Shown: positions 42,526 to 50,168 of the stretch, piece by piece
Numbering within the stretch: position 1 is the stretch's first letter
Layout of the letters: the number at the start of each line of letters is the position of its first letter
From: Symbiobacterium thermophilum
GTDB lineage: Bacteria > Bacillota > Sulfobacillia > UBA995
Reading direction: 5' to 3'
Length of the DNA stretch: 50,168 bases
NCBI GenBank assembly: GCA_020725145.1
Contig: DYFO01000003.1
Span: 65,324-115,491, forward strand
Translations under genes and position numbers: made by a program
Notes under the pieces: generated by a model
Databases searched by the model: none
Told to the model about the DNA's origin: nothing
What the model saw: the letters and a program-made list of their open reading frames with translations, nothing else

Positions 42526-44658
42526 TTGAACGACCCGGATGCCCGCATTCTCGAAGCTCTCGGCCGCCGTCCCGGGCGGCCGCTGACCTTCGAGGAACTC
42601 GCTACGCGGTTGCCGGAGATGGGAGATCTGGCCGGCCGTCTGGGGAAGCTGGAGGCCCGGGGCCGGGTGATCCGGACCCGCACCGGCCGCTACGGGCTGC
42701 CGGAGAACATGAACCTGGCGGTCGGCCGCCTGGAGATCACCCGGGGAGGCCACGGTTTCGTGATCGGCGACGGTCCCGACGTGCACGTGGCCCCCGGCGA
42801 TCTCGGAGGAGCCCTGCAGGGCGACCGCGTCATCGTCCGCCTGCTGCCGCCGGCCCGGCGGCGCCGCAACCGTGCCCCGGGACCCTCGGGTGAGGTCATC
42901 CGCCTCCTGGAACGTGCTCCCCACCCGGTGGTGGGCACCCTTGAGATCCGGGCCGGCGTCGGACTGGTGGTCCCCGACGATCCCCGGCGAGGCCCGACGC
43001 TGCTCATCCCCGCCACCGCGCTCGGTGGGGCACGGTCGGGCCACACGGTGGCCGCCGAGGTGGTGGACTGGGGTGACCGCCACCGTCTGGCCGAGGGGCG
43101 GGTAGTGGAGGATCTGGGGCCGGCAGGCGACCCGCGCACCGACATCCCCGCCGTCATCCACCGCCACGGGCTGCCGTCACGGTTCCCGGCGCCGGTGCTG
43201 GCGGCCGCCGACGCCCTGCCCCGGGAGGTTCGTCCCGCGGACCGCGAAGGCCGGGAGGACCTGAGGGCCCTGCCCACGGTGACCATCGACGGCGAGGACG
43301 CCCGCGACCACGACGACGCCGTCTCCATCCGCCGGCTGCCCGGCGGCGGCTACCGCCTGTGGGTGCACGTGGCCGATGTCGCCCACTACGTGCCGGCCGG
43401 TGGCGTGCTGGACCGTGAGGCCTTGGAGCGGGGGACGAGCGTCTATCTGGTAGACCGCGTGCTGCCCATGTTCCCACCCCCGCTGTCGGAAGGCATCGCC
43501 AGCCTCAACCCCGCGGTGGACCGCCTGGCGGTTACGGCCATCCTGGACTTCGGCGCGGGCGGCGAGCTTCGGCGCAAGGAGTTCTGCCGCAGCCTGATCC
43601 GCGTGGACGAGCGTATGACCTACCCGCAGGTGCGGGCCATCCTGGAAGGCGACCGCCACCTGCGGCAGCGCTATGCCCCCCTGGTGGACGACTTCGAAGC
43701 CATGCGCGAGTTGGCCCTTGCCCTGCTGGAGACACGTCGCAGGCGGGGTAGCCTGGACTTCGATCTGCCGGAGGCCAGGGTGGAAGTGGACGCGGAAGGC
43801 AATCCCACCTTCCTGGGACGGGCCGAGCGCTCGGTGGCCGACCGCATCATCGAGGAGTTCATGCTGCAGGCCAACCAGGCCGTCGCCTCTTTCCTGGAAG
43901 ACCGAGGCTTTCCGCTCATCTACCGCGTGCACGAGGAGCCCGACTCCTCGCGCCTGGAGGAACTGGCCGCGTTCCTGGCCGCCCTGGGTTTCGTGCTCGC
44001 TCCCCGCGGCCGGCCCGCGCGCCGCCTGCAGGCGGTCGTGGACCGCGCCCGCGGCGGTCCCCTGGAGGGCGTGGTGGGCATGGCCGTCCTGCGGTCGCTG
44101 AAGCTCGCCCGCTACAGCCGGGAGGACCTCGGCCACTTCGGGTTGGCCACACGTGCCTACACCCACTTCACCTCGCCCATCCGGCGCTACCCCGACCTGG
44201 TGGTTCACCGCCAGCTGGTCCGGGCGCTGTCCGGAGCGAGCCCCGGCGACCCCGGGCTGCTGGACGAGGTGGCCGACCTGGCCTCGGCCCGGGAGCGGCG
44301 GGCGGCGGAGGCCGAGATGGAAGGGGTGCTCGTCAAGAAGGTGCGCTACATGGCGGACAGGCGGGGTGAGATATACCCGGGGATCGTCACCGGCGTGGCC
44401 CCCTTCGGCTTCTTCGTGGGGCTGGAGAACACGGTCGAGGGTCTGGTGCACGTATCCACCCTGGGCGACGACTACTACCGCTTCGATCCCGGCCGCCAGG
44501 CGCTGGTGGGCAGGAGGGCGGGGCGTCTTTACCGGCCGGGCCAGGCGGTCGAGGTGCAGGTGGCCCGGGCGTCGGTCGCTACCTGCCAGGTCGAGTTCGT
44601 GTTGGTGGGCGGAGGAACCGAGCGCAGCGGGAGGCAGCGGGGCAGGCGAGGCGGTTGA
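42526..44658 (+). CDS. rnr: Ribonuclease R
   Basis: LPTVTIDGEDARDHDDAVSIRRLPGGGYRLWVHVADVAHYV, VDRVLPMFPPPLSEGIASLNP, YTHFTSPIRRYPDLVVHRQL, S1 domain GEIYPGIVTGVAPFGFFVGLENTVEGLVHVSTL. Confidence 0.97.
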   Translation: MNDPDARILEALGRRPGRPLTFEELATRLPEMGDLAGRLGKLEARGRVIRTRTGRYGLPENMNLAVGRLEITRGGHGFVIGDGPDVHVAPGDLGGALQGDRVIVRLLPPARRRRNRAPGPSGEVIRLLERAPHPVVGTLEIRAGVGLVVPDDPRRGPTLLIPATALGGARSGHTVAAEVVDWGDRHRLAEGRVVEDLGPAGDPRTDIPAVIHRHGLPSRFPAPVLAAADALPREVRPADREGREDLRALPTVTIDGEDARDHDDAVSIRRLPGGGYRLWVHVADVAHYVPAGGVLDREALERGTSVYLVDRVLPMFPPPLSEGIASLNPAVDRLAVTAILDFGAGGELRRKEFCRSLIRVDERMTYPQVRAILEGDRHLRQRYAPLVDDFEAMRELALALLETRRRRGSLDFDLPEARVEVDAEGNPTFLGRAERSVADRIIEEFMLQANQAVASFLEDRGFPLIYRVHEEPDSSRLEELAAFLAALGFVLAPRGRPARRLQAVVDRARGGPLEGVVGMAVLRSLKLARYSREDLGHFGLATRAYTHFTSPIRRYPDLVVHRQLVRALSGASPGDPGLLDEVADLASARERRAAEAEMEGVLVKKVRYMADRRGEIYPGIVTGVAPFGFFVGLENTVEGLVHVSTLGDDYYRFDPGRQALVGRRAGRLYRPGQAVEVQVARASVATCQVEFVLVGGGTERSGRQRGRRGG

Positions 44659-44795: not shown

Positions 44796-45398
44796 GTGGC
44801 CGGAATAACCAGCAAGGACCTGTTGATGCTACTGCTGTATGTTCCCGGTGCCACAGGCAAGCGCGGGGAACCTATCTACGGAAGGACTCTTCTCCAGAAG
44901 ATTGTCTTCCTTTTCAGCCAGGAGGTCTTCCCGAAGTTCAAGAAGGACGCGATGATGGCTGAAGAGGACATACCCTTGTTTGACCCGGACAGATTCGGCC
45001 CCTTTTCGAAGCGAGTTCTTGACGACATTGAATTCCTTGTCAACCTGGGGTTTGTTGAGCGGCAGACTGTCTCATCAGAGGCCGCTACAGCGGAGGAGGC
45101 ATCGGAGTACGAAGCTTGGTCGGTGGATTCTCGCGCAGCCGGCTACGCCGAGGGTGCCGGCTTCGAGGAGTACCGTAAGGAGAGCCTTGCCCTGTCGGAG
45201 TTGGGCTGCCGGTTTGTCGAAGAACGGCTCCTGAAAAAGGTGAGTGACAACCAGTTGCGCGCCCTGGAAATGCTTAAGCGCAACTGCACTCGAGTGTCGC
45301 TACAAGAGGTGTTGCACTACGTCTACTCCAAGTACCCTAATTACACATCGCGATCGGAGATCAGGGACAAGATCCTGTCACGTAGACGTCGAGTATGA
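44796..45398 (+). CDS. Uncharacterised YwgA/SocA(DUF4065)-like protein, first gene of the accessory cassette
   Basis: GITSKDLLMLLLYVPGATGKRGEPIYGRTLLQKIVFLFSQEVFPKF...FDPDRFGPFSKRVLDDIEFLVNLGFVERQ: pattern of YwgA/Panacea-type proteins; start uncertain (44775 possible). Confidence 0.6.
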   Translation: MAGITSKDLLMLLLYVPGATGKRGEPIYGRTLLQKIVFLFSQEVFPKFKKDAMMAEEDIPLFDPDRFGPFSKRVLDDIEFLVNLGFVERQTVSSEAATAEEASEYEAWSVDSRAAGYAEGAGFEEYRKESLALSELGCRFVEERLLKKVSDNQLRALEMLKRNCTRVSLQEVLHYVYSKYPNYTSRSEIRDKILSRRRRV

Positions 45399-45807
45399 AT
45401 CAGAACTGGATTTTGTCCGCCGTGTCTTCGATAGTCTGGCTCGGAGTGGCAAGATGGGCTACACCGAGGTGCCGTGTCTGTCACACTCGGTGGACTTGGT
45501 GCTTGAGGTAAGCGAGGCCCTGATTGCTGTCGAATTCAAGCTCAGTGATTGGCGCAGGGGCCTATCCCAAGCCGAGCACCATCTCATCGCCTTCGACTAC
45601 TGCTACGTATGTCTTCCTAAGCGAACTATCACCGCTTCGATCCGCGAGGCGTTTTCGAAATCTGGTATCGGCCTTCTTCTCGTCGAAGAAGCGGTCGGCC
45701 GGATCGCTCTGACGGAGGTAATCAGTCCCAGGCTCTCGACCAGGAAATGGCACGTTGCCGAGCGGTGGGTCCGAGACGCCTTCGGAGGGAGGAGGTTGCA
45801 GCCATGA
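45244..45807 (+). CDS. PD-(D/E)XK nuclease-like protein (start uncertain; conserved part begins near 45390)
   Basis: ESELDFVRRVFDSLARSGKMGYTEVPCLSHSVDLVLEVSEALIAVEFKLSDWRRGLSQAEHHLIAFDYCYVCLP: D...ExK core and following QA motif. Confidence 0.65.
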   Translation: MTTSCAPWKCLSATALECRYKRCCTTSTPSTLITHRDRRSGTRSCHVDVEYESELDFVRRVFDSLARSGKMGYTEVPCLSHSVDLVLEVSEALIAVEFKLSDWRRGLSQAEHHLIAFDYCYVCLPKRTITASIREAFSKSGIGLLLVEEAVGRIALTEVISPRLSTRKWHVAERWVRDAFGGRRLQP

Positions 45808-47165
45808 TTGCTCGCGACCGGTCGGCCCCCGTTCACATGGTTCGCTACGGCATCCACCGGGAGGCCCACTACTTCTGCGGTGAGTTTGCGGACTCCTACG
45901 ACTGGGTAGTGTTCAACGGGGCGATGGTAGCCGACGCTGCGTCTGGTTTGGCGGCTTTTGCCTCATCGAAAGCAACTGGCAAGCCTTTCATCATTGATCC
46001 CCAAACGCACGCGTTTCAACACGGTCTGGCGAGCGTTGAGTCAAGCAAGACCGGAGGGATCAAGCGTTCTATCTTGAAACTGGCCGATTACCTGGGTGAA
46101 CCCGTGAAGTCGCGTCTGAGTAGTTGGCGCCCGGTTACACCAGAGGACTTCAGCGGTAGCTTGGTGGAAGCATTTGTGGCCAGAGTGGCCGACTTCCAAC
46201 TGAATACGCTGCGAACTCAAGCGGCGGCCAGGGGTGAACTGGAGTACTACCAGTTTGCGGGAATAGCGGCGCCGCTTGAGCCCGAGTCAGTCGTGGCCCC
46301 CTACTTCCTCATGGATGAAACCACCGTCGACGATTGGCTGCCGCTCAACGTCCGGTTTGTGGAGTGCTCAAAACAACTTCATCCCGGACGTTCAGTTACA
46401 TTGCAGCTAGTTGTCGATCAGGGTCTGCTCCTCAGCGATCAAATCAACAACGTCATTGACCTCGTTGTCTCCTCAAGAGCTGACCAGGTTGCCGTGTGGG
46501 TTGACAGGCTGGATGAAGTGCAAGCTCCGGCTTTCGTGTTGAAGAAGTACTTGGGGCTGCTTAAAGCGATAGGCAAGAGCAAGCCAGTCTCCGTCCTGTA
46601 CGGGTCATATCTGCCCGTGATCCTGGCGAAGGTGAGACCCGGCTATAACATTGCCGGTGTTTGCCATGGATTGGAGTACGGCGAGCACCGACCTGTCGTA
46701 CCAGTTGGCGGGGGCATACCGATTTCCAAGTTCTACTACCCAAGGGTCCATGCCCGCTTGGATTACTTCGATGCCTACAAGTTGGCCAGTCGGCACCTTG
46801 GTTCAGCCAGTGACTACATGGCCAACGTGTGCGATTGTCCCGTGTGCACTGAGCTCATTGGAGGTGCCACCAGACCCGATGAGGGGTTCGCGCTGTATGG
46901 TGAACCCAAGTCAATCAGGGTGGAGACTCGACACAGGGGAGTGTCCTATCGCAACATACCTACCCCAGAGGCAAGGGATCGCTGTGTTCGACACTATCTC
47001 CATGTGAAGTCCAGGGAGTTCAGGGAGCCAAGACGCGAGCCTGCAGTTGTGTCCAAGGAGCTGAGGGACGCCAGGGAAGAGGCTATGGCTCTCCTCGGAA
47101 GCTCAGCAGTTGGACACTTGAAGGTGTGGGCCGACCTGATCGAGAAGGAGGGCGACGGTTTCTAG
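45804..47165 (+). CDS. Uncharacterised protein, putative TIM-barrel related to tRNA-guanine transglycosylase/DpdA with CxCxxC motif
   Basis: Alternating strand/helix pattern; GVCHGLEYGEHRPVVPVGGGIPISKFYYPRVHARLDYFDAYKLAS...ANVCDCPVCTELI near the C-terminus; ATGA overlap with the preceding ORF. Confidence 0.5.
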   Translation: MIARDRSAPVHMVRYGIHREAHYFCGEFADSYDWVVFNGAMVADAASGLAAFASSKATGKPFIIDPQTHAFQHGLASVESSKTGGIKRSILKLADYLGEPVKSRLSSWRPVTPEDFSGSLVEAFVARVADFQLNTLRTQAAARGELEYYQFAGIAAPLEPESVVAPYFLMDETTVDDWLPLNVRFVECSKQLHPGRSVTLQLVVDQGLLLSDQINNVIDLVVSSRADQVAVWVDRLDEVQAPAFVLKKYLGLLKAIGKSKPVSVLYGSYLPVILAKVRPGYNIAGVCHGLEYGEHRPVVPVGGGIPISKFYYPRVHARLDYFDAYKLASRHLGSASDYMANVCDCPVCTELIGGATRPDEGFALYGEPKSIRVETRHRGVSYRNIPTPEARDRCVRHYLHVKSREFREPRREPAVVSKELRDAREEAMALLGSSAVGHLKVWADLIEKEGDGF

Positions 47166-48290
47166 GTGTCAGCCCGTACGAGCGCCGTGCTTGTTTTGGG
47201 GGCAGGGTTCTCAACTCCTGCAGGCGTCCCTTCTCAAAGAGAACTCCTCAGCCACATCCACGAACTGACTCCCATGCTGGGAGAGAGTGAGGAAGTGATA
47301 AGGTTTCAGAAAGCGAAGCAGGTGGTGGAAGACTTCCTGCAAGCAGTCTTCAGTGAGTGTGACCGTTCGGTGGGCGAGCGACCGTGGTGGGAGATTGAGC
47401 TGGAGGATGTCTACTCCGTTCTCGACCGAGCATTGTCAGAGGACGATGTGCTGCTACGTGGCAGTCGACGCCGTGACGCCGGAGGATGCGGGCTCGAGCG
47501 AACACTGTCAGAGGACGAGCCCTACGACCATGAGAGGCTGTACTTGGTCAGAAACAGCCTTGACACCTGCATAGCCTATGCTATCAGCCATGCTACTCCC
47601 GCTGATCTCTCGCTTTACCACGCAGTGTATAATGAGCTGTGTGCCCGATACGATGACTGGGCAACGATTAGCACCAACTGGGATCTACTCTGGGACAACA
47701 CTCTGCAGCAGTGTTCCTCTCGGTGTGGACAGACCGTGGATTACGGCGTTCCGGCCAGAGCAATGGAAGACGGCTCCCTGCTCCCTCGTGGAGGCCCATT
47801 GCTCTACAAGCTTCATGGCTCCCTGAACTGGGGTTCATGCCCCTGTTGTCACGGCATGTTTGCCCGCACGGACGGGCGGTTGTGGGTTCCGCAGATCATG
47901 CCGGCTCCCTGTCCACGGTGCGGCTCGAACGAAGAGACTCCATCGCTCAGAACGTTTATCATCACGCCTACCGCGCTGAAGACCATCAGGAACCCGATTG
48001 TCCAGATGGTATACGATGAGGCTTTCGCCTTACTCAGGCGGGCCACCACCGTTATCTTCGTCGGATACTCGCTGCCAGCGGCCGATCACAACCTCAGATA
48101 CTTGTTCCGCAGGGGGATTTCCACGGAAGCGTCGGTCAAGGTGATCCTGCGCGACCCCGGAGCCACGGACGTGTTCAGGCGGTACCAGAGCCTTCTCGGC
48201 TTGCCCAACGACTCTCTATGCACCGAAGGCTTTGAGTCCTTCTTCAATCTTCGGGGACGGTGTGACCGGGGTAGCTGGAACCTCAGCTAG
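47166..48290 (+). CDS. SIR2-like domain protein with Cys-rich zinc ribbon
   Basis: AVLVLGAGFSTPAGVPSQRELL, DDWATISTNWDLLWDNTL, LLYKLHGSLNWGSCPCCHG...CPRCGSNEETPSLRTFIITPT, VIFVGYSLPAADHNLRYLFRRG; starts immediately after the preceding stop. Confidence 0.88.
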   Translation: MSARTSAVLVLGAGFSTPAGVPSQRELLSHIHELTPMLGESEEVIRFQKAKQVVEDFLQAVFSECDRSVGERPWWEIELEDVYSVLDRALSEDDVLLRGSRRRDAGGCGLERTLSEDEPYDHERLYLVRNSLDTCIAYAISHATPADLSLYHAVYNELCARYDDWATISTNWDLLWDNTLQQCSSRCGQTVDYGVPARAMEDGSLLPRGGPLLYKLHGSLNWGSCPCCHGMFARTDGRLWVPQIMPAPCPRCGSNEETPSLRTFIITPTALKTIRNPIVQMVYDEAFALLRRATTVIFVGYSLPAADHNLRYLFRRGISTEASVKVILRDPGATDVFRRYQSLLGLPNDSLCTEGFESFFNLRGRCDRGSWNLS

Positions 48291-49160
48291 TTCTTACCTG
48301 TGTCCCACCCGGTCTCATATGCTGTTCCCGGCGGCCAACACCCCCTGCTCCCTGACCTCTTCCGCCCAGCGAACGCGCCGGTCCGGTAGGCGGCGGAACT
48401 TTGTCTACAGTGTAGCTCCTGGGCTCGATACCCCCGGTGACGGGGGGAAACGCAATGCCGGTCCAGGACCCGGGCCTGGCGAAGCCGAACAGGGTGGTCT
48501 TGGACTGCTCCAGTTGCTCGGCCAGCCGCAACACCGAATGGCCCGCGCCGCAGTCTCCAGCCCCTCAGGAGCTCCTTCAGGGCGCACTCGGTGCTCTGCT
48601 GAACCTCTTGAAGCACGCCCAGACATGAGCGCTGGCCTCGAGTCCCGGCCGGCGGATGCCGGGGTGTGGCGTGCGGGCGGGCGGGGAGTCCGCTACCCGG
48701 TGTCGTCCTTAATTCCGCCGGGAAGCCAGCGGTGCCAGCTAGCGGTGAACTGCTCCACCGACTGCCCAGTGAGCTCTTCCAGCGCGGCCTTCCTGTCCAG
48801 GCCGTCGCACAGGAGATCCACCAGCCGCCTGAGGGCGTCCAAGCCCCACCTCGCCGTGAGGTACTCGGCCAAGGAGAAGGCGTACTCGCAGCGGCCGCGC
48901 ACCGGGTTGGTGGCGAAGCCCTCGACCAGAGCGTCGAGCGCGGGAAGGGATGCTCCGACCAGCCAGGAAAGGAAGCCCTCGCGGCGGTGCCCCTGGAGCT
49001 GGCCGGCGGCCAAGCCTGCCATCCCTTCCGACAGCCACGCGATCGGCGGTACGACCACCCCCCGGGCCATCACGTAGCGGCCCAACAGCAGGTGGTTCAG
49101 CTCGTGGACGAAGATCTCGTGGAACTCCTGGATCCCTCTACTACGAAAATGGACTCCCGA

Positions 49161-49420: not shown

Positions 49421-50168
49421 TTCATGCTTCGTGGTGCCCCCATGGGGGGCATGGCGGTCTCTTCAGGGCCGAGGAGGAGAGCATGAGCACGCCAGCCGGC
49501 GTTACCATACCCTGCATCCAGTCCCGAACAGGCATGGCTGTTGCTTGGCGAAGGTGTTTGACGGACGGGAAGACGTAGGCGGTGACCGGTTCGAGCGCCC
49601 AGTCCGGCGGTTCCTCGCCCGGAAGGAGCAAGGGTGCCAGGGCGCGGTCGAAGCCGTCCTCGCTGGCCAGCTCGAGGTGTTGGAGATCGCGGCCGTGCCC
49701 GGGCCAGACATGCAAATCGAGCCGCGCCGTCCTGGCGGTCTCCCAGGCGACCTTGCCGAGCGACGGACCATCCGTATGGACGCGAACCGCCAGCCCGCGG
49801 GTTCCGGAAAGAGCTCCACCTCGAGATCCAGGCGGCCCAGCCGGGCGAACCGGCAATGCACCGACACCACTGCGGGCTCGCTGTCGGCGACGGCCACGAT
49901 GGTCCATCGGCGGATGGCGCCGGCCATCCGGAGGCCCTGGGCGAGGTGGTCGGCCAGGGCGGAAGGGTCCCCGCGGTAGGCGGCGATGGCGAGATCGGCG
50001 GCTTCCCAGTAATCTCCCCGGGCCAGGGCGTCGAACAACCGAGCTACCGTCTCGCCGGGGCTACCGGGCTCTGGGATCAAGCCCTCCGGCCAGGGTGCTA
50101 GCCCATGTTTGACAGAAATGACGGGTTACCGGGGTCGCGGTAAGCGTTGAGGCTTGAGAAACACCAGG

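Follow-up and report, generated by a model that had tools for sequence, protein, structure and literature searches.

Near the end of a 50,168-nucleotide stretch of Symbiobacterium thermophilum DNA (contig DYFO01000003.1, positions 65,324 to 115,491; hereafter the window), inspection of the open reading frames reveals four closely packed genes on the forward strand, immediately 3′ of rnr. These genes, ORF1 to ORF4, encode in order a SocA/Panacea-like protein, a PD-(D/E)XK nuclease-like protein, a protein with the fold of the tRNA-guanine transglycosylase (TGT) superfamily and a SIR2-like protein (Table 1). From sequence comparison, we consider it probable that they form a modular immune cassette, acquired horizontally, that resembles toxin-antitoxin systems and works by abortive infection. 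The comparative record shows that a core of three genes (ORF1 to ORF3) travels jointly across bacteria and archaea together with an exchangeable fourth gene. The evidence that argues for this reading consists of the co-occurrence of the core genes, the exchange of the putative effector, the kinship of ORF1 with antitoxins, the mobility of the cassette, and the conserved catalytic motifs of ORF2 and the SIR2 protein.

A recurrent three-gene core and its exchangeable partner

An initial protein search returned two relatives in the phylum of the window's genome, with all four genes in order; the same genes and order occur at 34-48% identity in other genera and recur across phyla too. With ORF3 as the seed, GTDB genome contigs yielded 23 loci (numbered with the prefix L), and further loci from plasmids, viral contigs and genome sampling brought the set to 29 distinct loci, window included, with an ORF3 larger than fragment size. 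Two contigs (L020 and L026) begin inside or just at ORF3 and were left out of the test for ORF1 and ORF2; at each of the 27 loci whose contig extends far enough, both genes lie beside ORF3. Because the search query held neither ORF1 nor ORF2, their co-occurrence with ORF3 is not built in. A reading of the window made from its sequence alone, without database searches (the sequence-only reading), had staked its candidate defence cassette on such recurrence, and by this survey the four-gene set is far beyond chance.

Relatives of ORF3 are found in many bacterial phyla and in archaea, as well as on two plasmids and two prophage-like contigs. Their occurrence is patchy, with 5 positive genomes among 154 of the class, 2 among 22 of the class of Moorella and, in a sample of the phylum, 6 among 398, some of them weak or fragmentary; two copies of the cassette are decayed (L062 and L063). 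A search of phages and plasmids with ORF3 gave a single weak match, on an Arthrobacter plasmid, and scans of viral contigs with ORF3 alone and with its actinobacterial subgroup found none. SocA-like matches in a Listeria record and in Halobiforma were dropped, as the cassette is not there. At two further loci (L060 and L061), distant ORF3 relatives (E 6e-6 and 1e-4, respectively) are found with a PD-(D/E)XK protein of about 250 amino acids and a Ser/Thr kinase-like protein, the L060 set standing behind a 1131-residue ATPase-like protein; this arrangement may be a sister system.

The identity of the additional gene differs between loci. A SIR2 gene follows ORF3 in ten of them (the window, L009-L013, L015, L018, L020 and L066). 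In 16 others, which have no SIR2 gene, a small membrane protein is encoded between ORF1 and ORF2 (Table 1). These membrane proteins are roughly 160-210 amino acids long and usually possess three hydrophobic segments, one at the N-terminus and the other two close to the C-terminus; they share this general shape, and no sequence similarity was detectable between their groups, profile comparison included. At a Methanosarcinales locus (L031), the same position is taken by a PIN-domain protein, of the type of RNA-cutting toxins (Pfam PIN, E 6e-8), for which no sequence relative was found in the PDB at E<=0.01. With L026 excluded, 27 of the 28 loci that could be judged encode one of these variable proteins, and two types never occur together within one cassette. 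On a tree of ORF3, the SIR2 loci, window included, form one clade (support 100/99) that spans four phyla (Bacillota, Planctomycetota, Patescibacteria and Acidobacteriota); its neighbors there are Moorella and Thermanaeromonas in the case of the window. Since the SIR2 loci fall in a single clade, the core has changed effector type, and on this phylogeny it appears to have done so rarely, between classes that by their sequences are mechanistically unrelated.

The window's own copy has the layout that the sequence-only reading had described, with four tight co-directional genes in DNA poorer in GC than its flanks and rnr as the neighbor on one side. An ATGA at 45804-45807 is common to the stop of ORF2 and the start of ORF3, and the ORF3 stop ends at 47165, directly before the GTG of ORF4 at 47166. 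GC content is 57.0% in the cassette compared to a mean of 69.5% (standard deviation 1.6%, minimum 66.0%) across 3.5-kb segments of bases 1-44700, and GC content at third codon positions is 0.65-0.68 compared to 0.87-0.90 in neighboring genes. Judged by this composition, the cassette is foreign to its genome and appears to have been acquired horizontally.

Elsewhere, many copies of the cassette are chromosomal. On two prophage-like viral contigs (L005 and L066), the ORFs that enclose it, as judged by eye, are a repressor-like gene on one side and an integrase or a serine recombinase on the other, and in L066 the genes are arranged as two convergent pairs on opposite strands, ORF3 with SIR2 and ORF1 with ORF2. 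Among 138 flanking proteins, some match models for type I specificity subunits, HNH, MADS, HerA, methyltransferases, integrases and resolvases, several of these being defense models of the restriction-modification, MADS or HerA kinds. The distribution of the cassette bears on the view that the four genes are a metabolic or RNA-repair operon with no role in conflict, in which ORF3 would edit or inspect tRNA, ORF2 would break down faulty RNA and the SIR2 protein would be a regulatory deacylase. TGT enzymes do work on tRNA and the zinc ribbon of ORF4 is sirtuin-like; against this stand the rare and patchy occurrence, the decayed copies, carriage by prophages and plasmids, and the replacement of SIR2 by membrane or PIN proteins, none of them features that suit housekeeping genes, and we consider such an operon highly improbable.

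Some neighboring features were seen in passing. To the right of the cassette, no long intact gene occurs before position 50168, about 1.9 kb on, where both the window and its contig end, and an apparent remnant of a peptidase-like gene lies in this interval. In the Moorella locus, an 831-residue TPR protein whose C-terminal part is a SIR2 domain is encoded upstream of the cassette, and downstream of it the gene for an HD-domain protein overlaps a second SocA-like gene, a pair that we take to resemble the ywfO-ywgA pairing of Bacillus.

Table 1. Positions of the cassette genes and other features (window numbering unless a locus is given)
Feature	Position	Strand	Description
ORF1	44796..45398	+	200 aa; SocA/Panacea (YwgA)-like antitoxin-type domain; PADLOC PDC-M19A, Pfam SocA_Panacea in relatives, DarG fold
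ORF2	45244..45807	+	PD-(D/E)XK nuclease-like protein; invariant active-site residues; conserved domain from about 45403
ORF3	45804..47165	+	453 aa; TGT-superfamily fold (barrel and CxCxxC...H zinc motif), active site changed; system core; AlphaFold2/Foldseek
ORF4	47166..48290	+	374 aa; SIR2-like with zinc ribbon, proposed NAD-consuming effector; Pfam SIR2_2, PADLOC SIR2 models
In-frame duplication in ORF4	47421..47518	+	copies 47421-47446 and 47493-47518, spacing 72
rnr (RNase R)	42526..44658	+	left flank, outside the system; E 9.6e-171 to solved RNase R
Apparent peptidase-like gene remnant	48693-49130	-	HELNH motif (by eye); broken near 49140
Loci with a membrane protein	L004, L005, L014, L016, L017, L019, L021-L025, L027-L030, L059		
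Two convergent pairs	L066:5977-9759		ORF3-SIR2 and ORF1-ORF2
TPR-SIR2 protein	L009:2458-4953		Moorella locus, upstream of cassette
HD-domain and SocA-like genes	L009:10799-12758		Moorella locus, downstream of cassette
Distant relatives	L060:3462-6239; L061:1272-4052		PD-(D/E)XK, Ser/Thr kinase-like, TGT-like ORF3 relative

Predicted properties of the four proteins

The start of ORF1 at GTG 44796 is backed by alignment with its relatives, and several matches agree with the earlier suggestion that the protein is SocA/YwgA-like. The PADLOC model PDC-M19A matches the window's ORF1 (E 2e-10) and all 22 aligned ORF1 sequences, in matches that are short and partial (38.5 bits, best stretch at profile positions 80-133 of 294). 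Pfam SocA_Panacea (PF13274) is detected in 11 of the 22 aligned relatives (best E 1.2e-7), and the DarG model of PADLOC has matches in five relatives. An AlphaFold2 model of ORF1 (predicted local distance difference test score, pLDDT, 85) has as its best solved Foldseek match the DarG chain of the Mycobacterium tuberculosis DarTG complex (probability 0.99, E 2e-3, template modeling (TM) score about 0.4). We therefore group ORF1 with antitoxin domains and propose that it acts in effector restraint or as an adaptor. Panacea antitoxins directly neutralize unrelated toxins, some of which target membranes (PMC8832971).

This kinship could also point to a plain addiction or stabilization module that retains mobile elements, with ORF1 as the antitoxin, the variable gene as the toxin, ORF2 and ORF3 as accessories and no dedicated infection sensor. 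Such a module would fit the placement of ORF1 in the Panacea/SocA group, the variation among toxin-like partners and the plasmid and prophage-like copies, and accessory third genes beside Panacea pairs have been reported (PMC8832971). Each of those third genes, however, is confined to a small fraction of the genomes with the Panacea pair (PMC8832971), whereas ORF2 and ORF3 occur in all testable loci, so that a two-gene pattern with an occasional third gene is not what we found. Together with the invariance of the nuclease residues, the spread over several phyla and the many chromosomal copies, this makes a simple addiction module unlikely.

The assignment of ORF2 to the PD-(D/E)XK proteins held up on alignment. 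E54, D84, E97, K99 and Q109 are invariant in 22 of 22 sequences, the D...ExK catalytic set of the superfamily is present, and the ORF2 profile weakly matches SPO1766 (3dnx) and NucS. No ATG, GTG or TTG lies between position 45244, inside ORF1, and the conserved domain, leaving GTG 45244 as the sole standard start; ORF2 therefore either begins there, overlapping ORF1 by about 155 nt, or uses a non-standard codon or a frameshift.

ORF4 was likewise correctly taken for a SIR2-like protein. It matches Pfam SIR2_2 (E 7e-6) and PADLOC SIR2 models, bears weak sequence resemblance to Nezha-type SIR2 and KomC, and in the window's copy possesses GAGFS (the Rossmann GAG motif), N171, H217 and a CxxC..CxxC motif. 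Across the SIR2 proteins of the cassette, H217 is present in ten of ten and N171 in nine. The window's ORF4 also contains a direct repeat of 26 nt (88% identity between copies), which adds about 24 amino acids that are missing from its relatives.

ORF3 yielded no profile match in Pfam, PADLOC, NCBIfam or PHROGs and none that convinced among PDB sequences, and the TGT family profile PF01702 matches none of the 22 family members. Its AlphaFold2 model is nevertheless confident (pLDDT 90.3, predicted TM score 0.90), and among solved structures Foldseek ranks first QTRT2, a subunit of the mouse TGT (7ovo_C, E 2.7e-4), in a full-length alignment with a moderate score (TM 0.48/0.54). Profile-profile alignment with canonical TGT covers the CxCxxC stretch only. 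In this zinc motif, C343, C345 and C348 are present in 19 of 22 sequences and H397 in all of them; also invariant are Y32, D65, P66, F71, Q72, P166, Y167, E294, G304, Y311, E405 and W442. Mapped by strand order in the model, without superposition, D65 (in DPQ..FQ) sits at the position of the aspartate of the TGT motif DSGGFQ and His288 (20 of 22) at that of the nucleophilic aspartate, and no conserved residue takes the place of the TGT glutamine or second aspartate. Judged by this modeled active site, the fold may bind a base and either carry out another chemistry or do no more than bind. Of the earlier description of ORF3 as TGT/DpdA-like, the first half thus stands at the level of the fold and the second finds no profile support: profiles for DpdA and other Dpd proteins gave no match to the ORF3 family, with the presence of a DpdA model in the PADLOC 2.0.0 and Pfam copies searched being unverified. 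A BFVD search with ORF3 returned chiefly other barrels, phage queuine transferases appearing far down the list.

These properties bear on a restriction-modification-like scheme, in which ORF3 would swap guanine in host DNA for 7-deazaguanine, ORF2 would cut unmarked DNA, and the SIR2 or membrane protein would be a back-up suicide effector. The TGT-superfamily fold of ORF3 and the nuclease-like ORF2 agree with such a scheme. Across 24 host genomes, several of which are incomplete metagenome-assembled genomes, a full-length QueC match was convincing in 10 and absent in 14, the latter including the window's genome and isolates of Moorella, Mycolicibacterium and Conexibacter. De novo preQ0 is consequently no general requirement; a canonical tRNA TGT is present in 22 of the 24, making deazaguanine salvage feasible. 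Against the scheme are the absence of TGT or Dpd profile matches, the apparent replacement of the nucleophilic aspartate by His288 beside invariant Asp65 and Glu294, the hosts that have no full-length QueC match, and the flanking PADLOC matches listed (25 of 150 families), among which no Dpd partner genes appear. We consequently discarded DpdA-type base insertion as the main explanation and regard the restriction-modification-like scheme as quite improbable. The sequence-only reading had inferred that base exchange or sensing is coupled to an effector; its base-exchange part is weakened by these results, whereas coupling between a sensor and an effector is strongly supported by the swapped effectors.

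A proposed mechanism and the points against it

In the abortive-infection reading that we favor, the fourth gene, whether it encodes a SIR2, membrane or PIN protein, would be a toxic effector that ORF1 keeps inactive in the manner of Panacea antitoxins. We propose such restraint because a fixed core is found with swappable, unrelated partners of toxic type, a hallmark of modular abortive-infection and toxin-antitoxin systems, and because Panacea antitoxins neutralize directly. ORF2 and ORF3, which are nearly always adjacent and are proposed to be a joint nucleic-acid-facing module, would act together on nucleic acid as the infection-responsive part of the system, with the TGT-like pocket of ORF3 recognizing a base or an RNA or DNA feature and ORF2 cutting or binding. 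Infection would alter the state of this complex such that ORF1 releases the effector; in the window's copy, the freed SIR2 protein would deplete NAD (nicotinamide adenine dinucleotide), and the infected cell would stop before phage release. We infer the anti-phage role, the trigger and the contact between ORF1 and the effector. A bolder reading, to which we give somewhat less than even odds, is of an immune system not previously described in bacteria or archaea. In it, a repurposed TGT-fold protein paired with the PD-(D/E)XK nuclease would sense infection and cause a Panacea-type antitoxin to free one or another of several unrelated suicide effectors (SIR2, membrane or PIN proteins).

Several observations weigh against this reading. 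The window's own ORF1 has no Pfam SocA match at E<=1, and the NADase activity of ORF4 is a prediction for which SIR2 homology alone is no proof. The copy on a Haloarcula plasmid (L007) has no recognizable effector. As few as two changes of effector type suffice on the ORF3 tree, on which the placement of the PIN locus is uncertain owing to a long branch. The split strands of L066 indicate that tight co-transcription is not obligatory, and the matches to defense genes among flanking proteins were counted without a control set and serve as supporting color only.

Relation to known systems and significance

The sequence-only reading did not recognize the four-gene set as a named system, and our searches agree: none of the named systems in PADLOC 2023 covers the combination, nor does any family in Pfam or NCBIfam or any paper in an open-access library. 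Preprints and the current DefenseFinder were outside the scope of the search, so prior naming is possible. The closest parallel is the Panacea (PanA/SocA) network, in which a SocA/Panacea-type domain is paired with unrelated toxins, including membrane-acting ones, and which also occurs on phages (PMC8832971, PMC10440598). Unlike in that network, the PD-(D/E)XK and TGT-fold genes are obligatory partners here and SIR2 is a partner; SIR2 and transglycosylase are absent from the main text of both papers. A BREX-related HerA system that includes a TGT gene has been described (PMC12839542), but its gene content is unlike that of the cassette.

DarTG is related through DarG, which is the closest solved fold to ORF1 and whose PADLOC model matches some of its relatives, but neither a DarT ADP-ribosyltransferase nor a macrodomain was recognized in the cassette. 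The Dpd (DpdA) system for 7-deazaguanine DNA modification and restriction similarly combines a TGT-superfamily protein with nuclease-type genes, and differs in the profile, active-site and QueC features described above. Thoeris, Nezha SIR2-HerA, Kongming and DSR share a SIR2 protein with an NAD-binding motif and catalytic Asn and His as the likely effector; none of them has a core of SocA-like, PD-(D/E)XK and TGT-fold proteins, and the cassette has no HerA, TIR or HAM1-like partner. CBASS, Pycsar and Avs each combine one conserved sensing core with interchangeable SIR2, membrane or nuclease effectors. The cassette is similar in this respect, but it has no cyclase or STAND ATPase gene and is a member of none of them. 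Finally, it resembles the PADLOC candidate PDC-M19 through ORF1, whereas ORF2, ORF3, ORF4 and the membrane proteins tested have no PDC-M19 match, so that not all subunits of that candidate are present. A modular effector with antitoxin-like control has precedents as a kind of system; the core has none that we found.

If our reading is true, the cassette would add one more modular immune system, found alike in bacteria, archaea, plasmids and prophages. The TGT fold would gain a role beyond base exchange, and a Panacea-type domain would come under the control of a dedicated nucleic-acid module. With one core and three kinds of effector, the wiring of a promiscuous antitoxin to an infection sensor would become directly testable.

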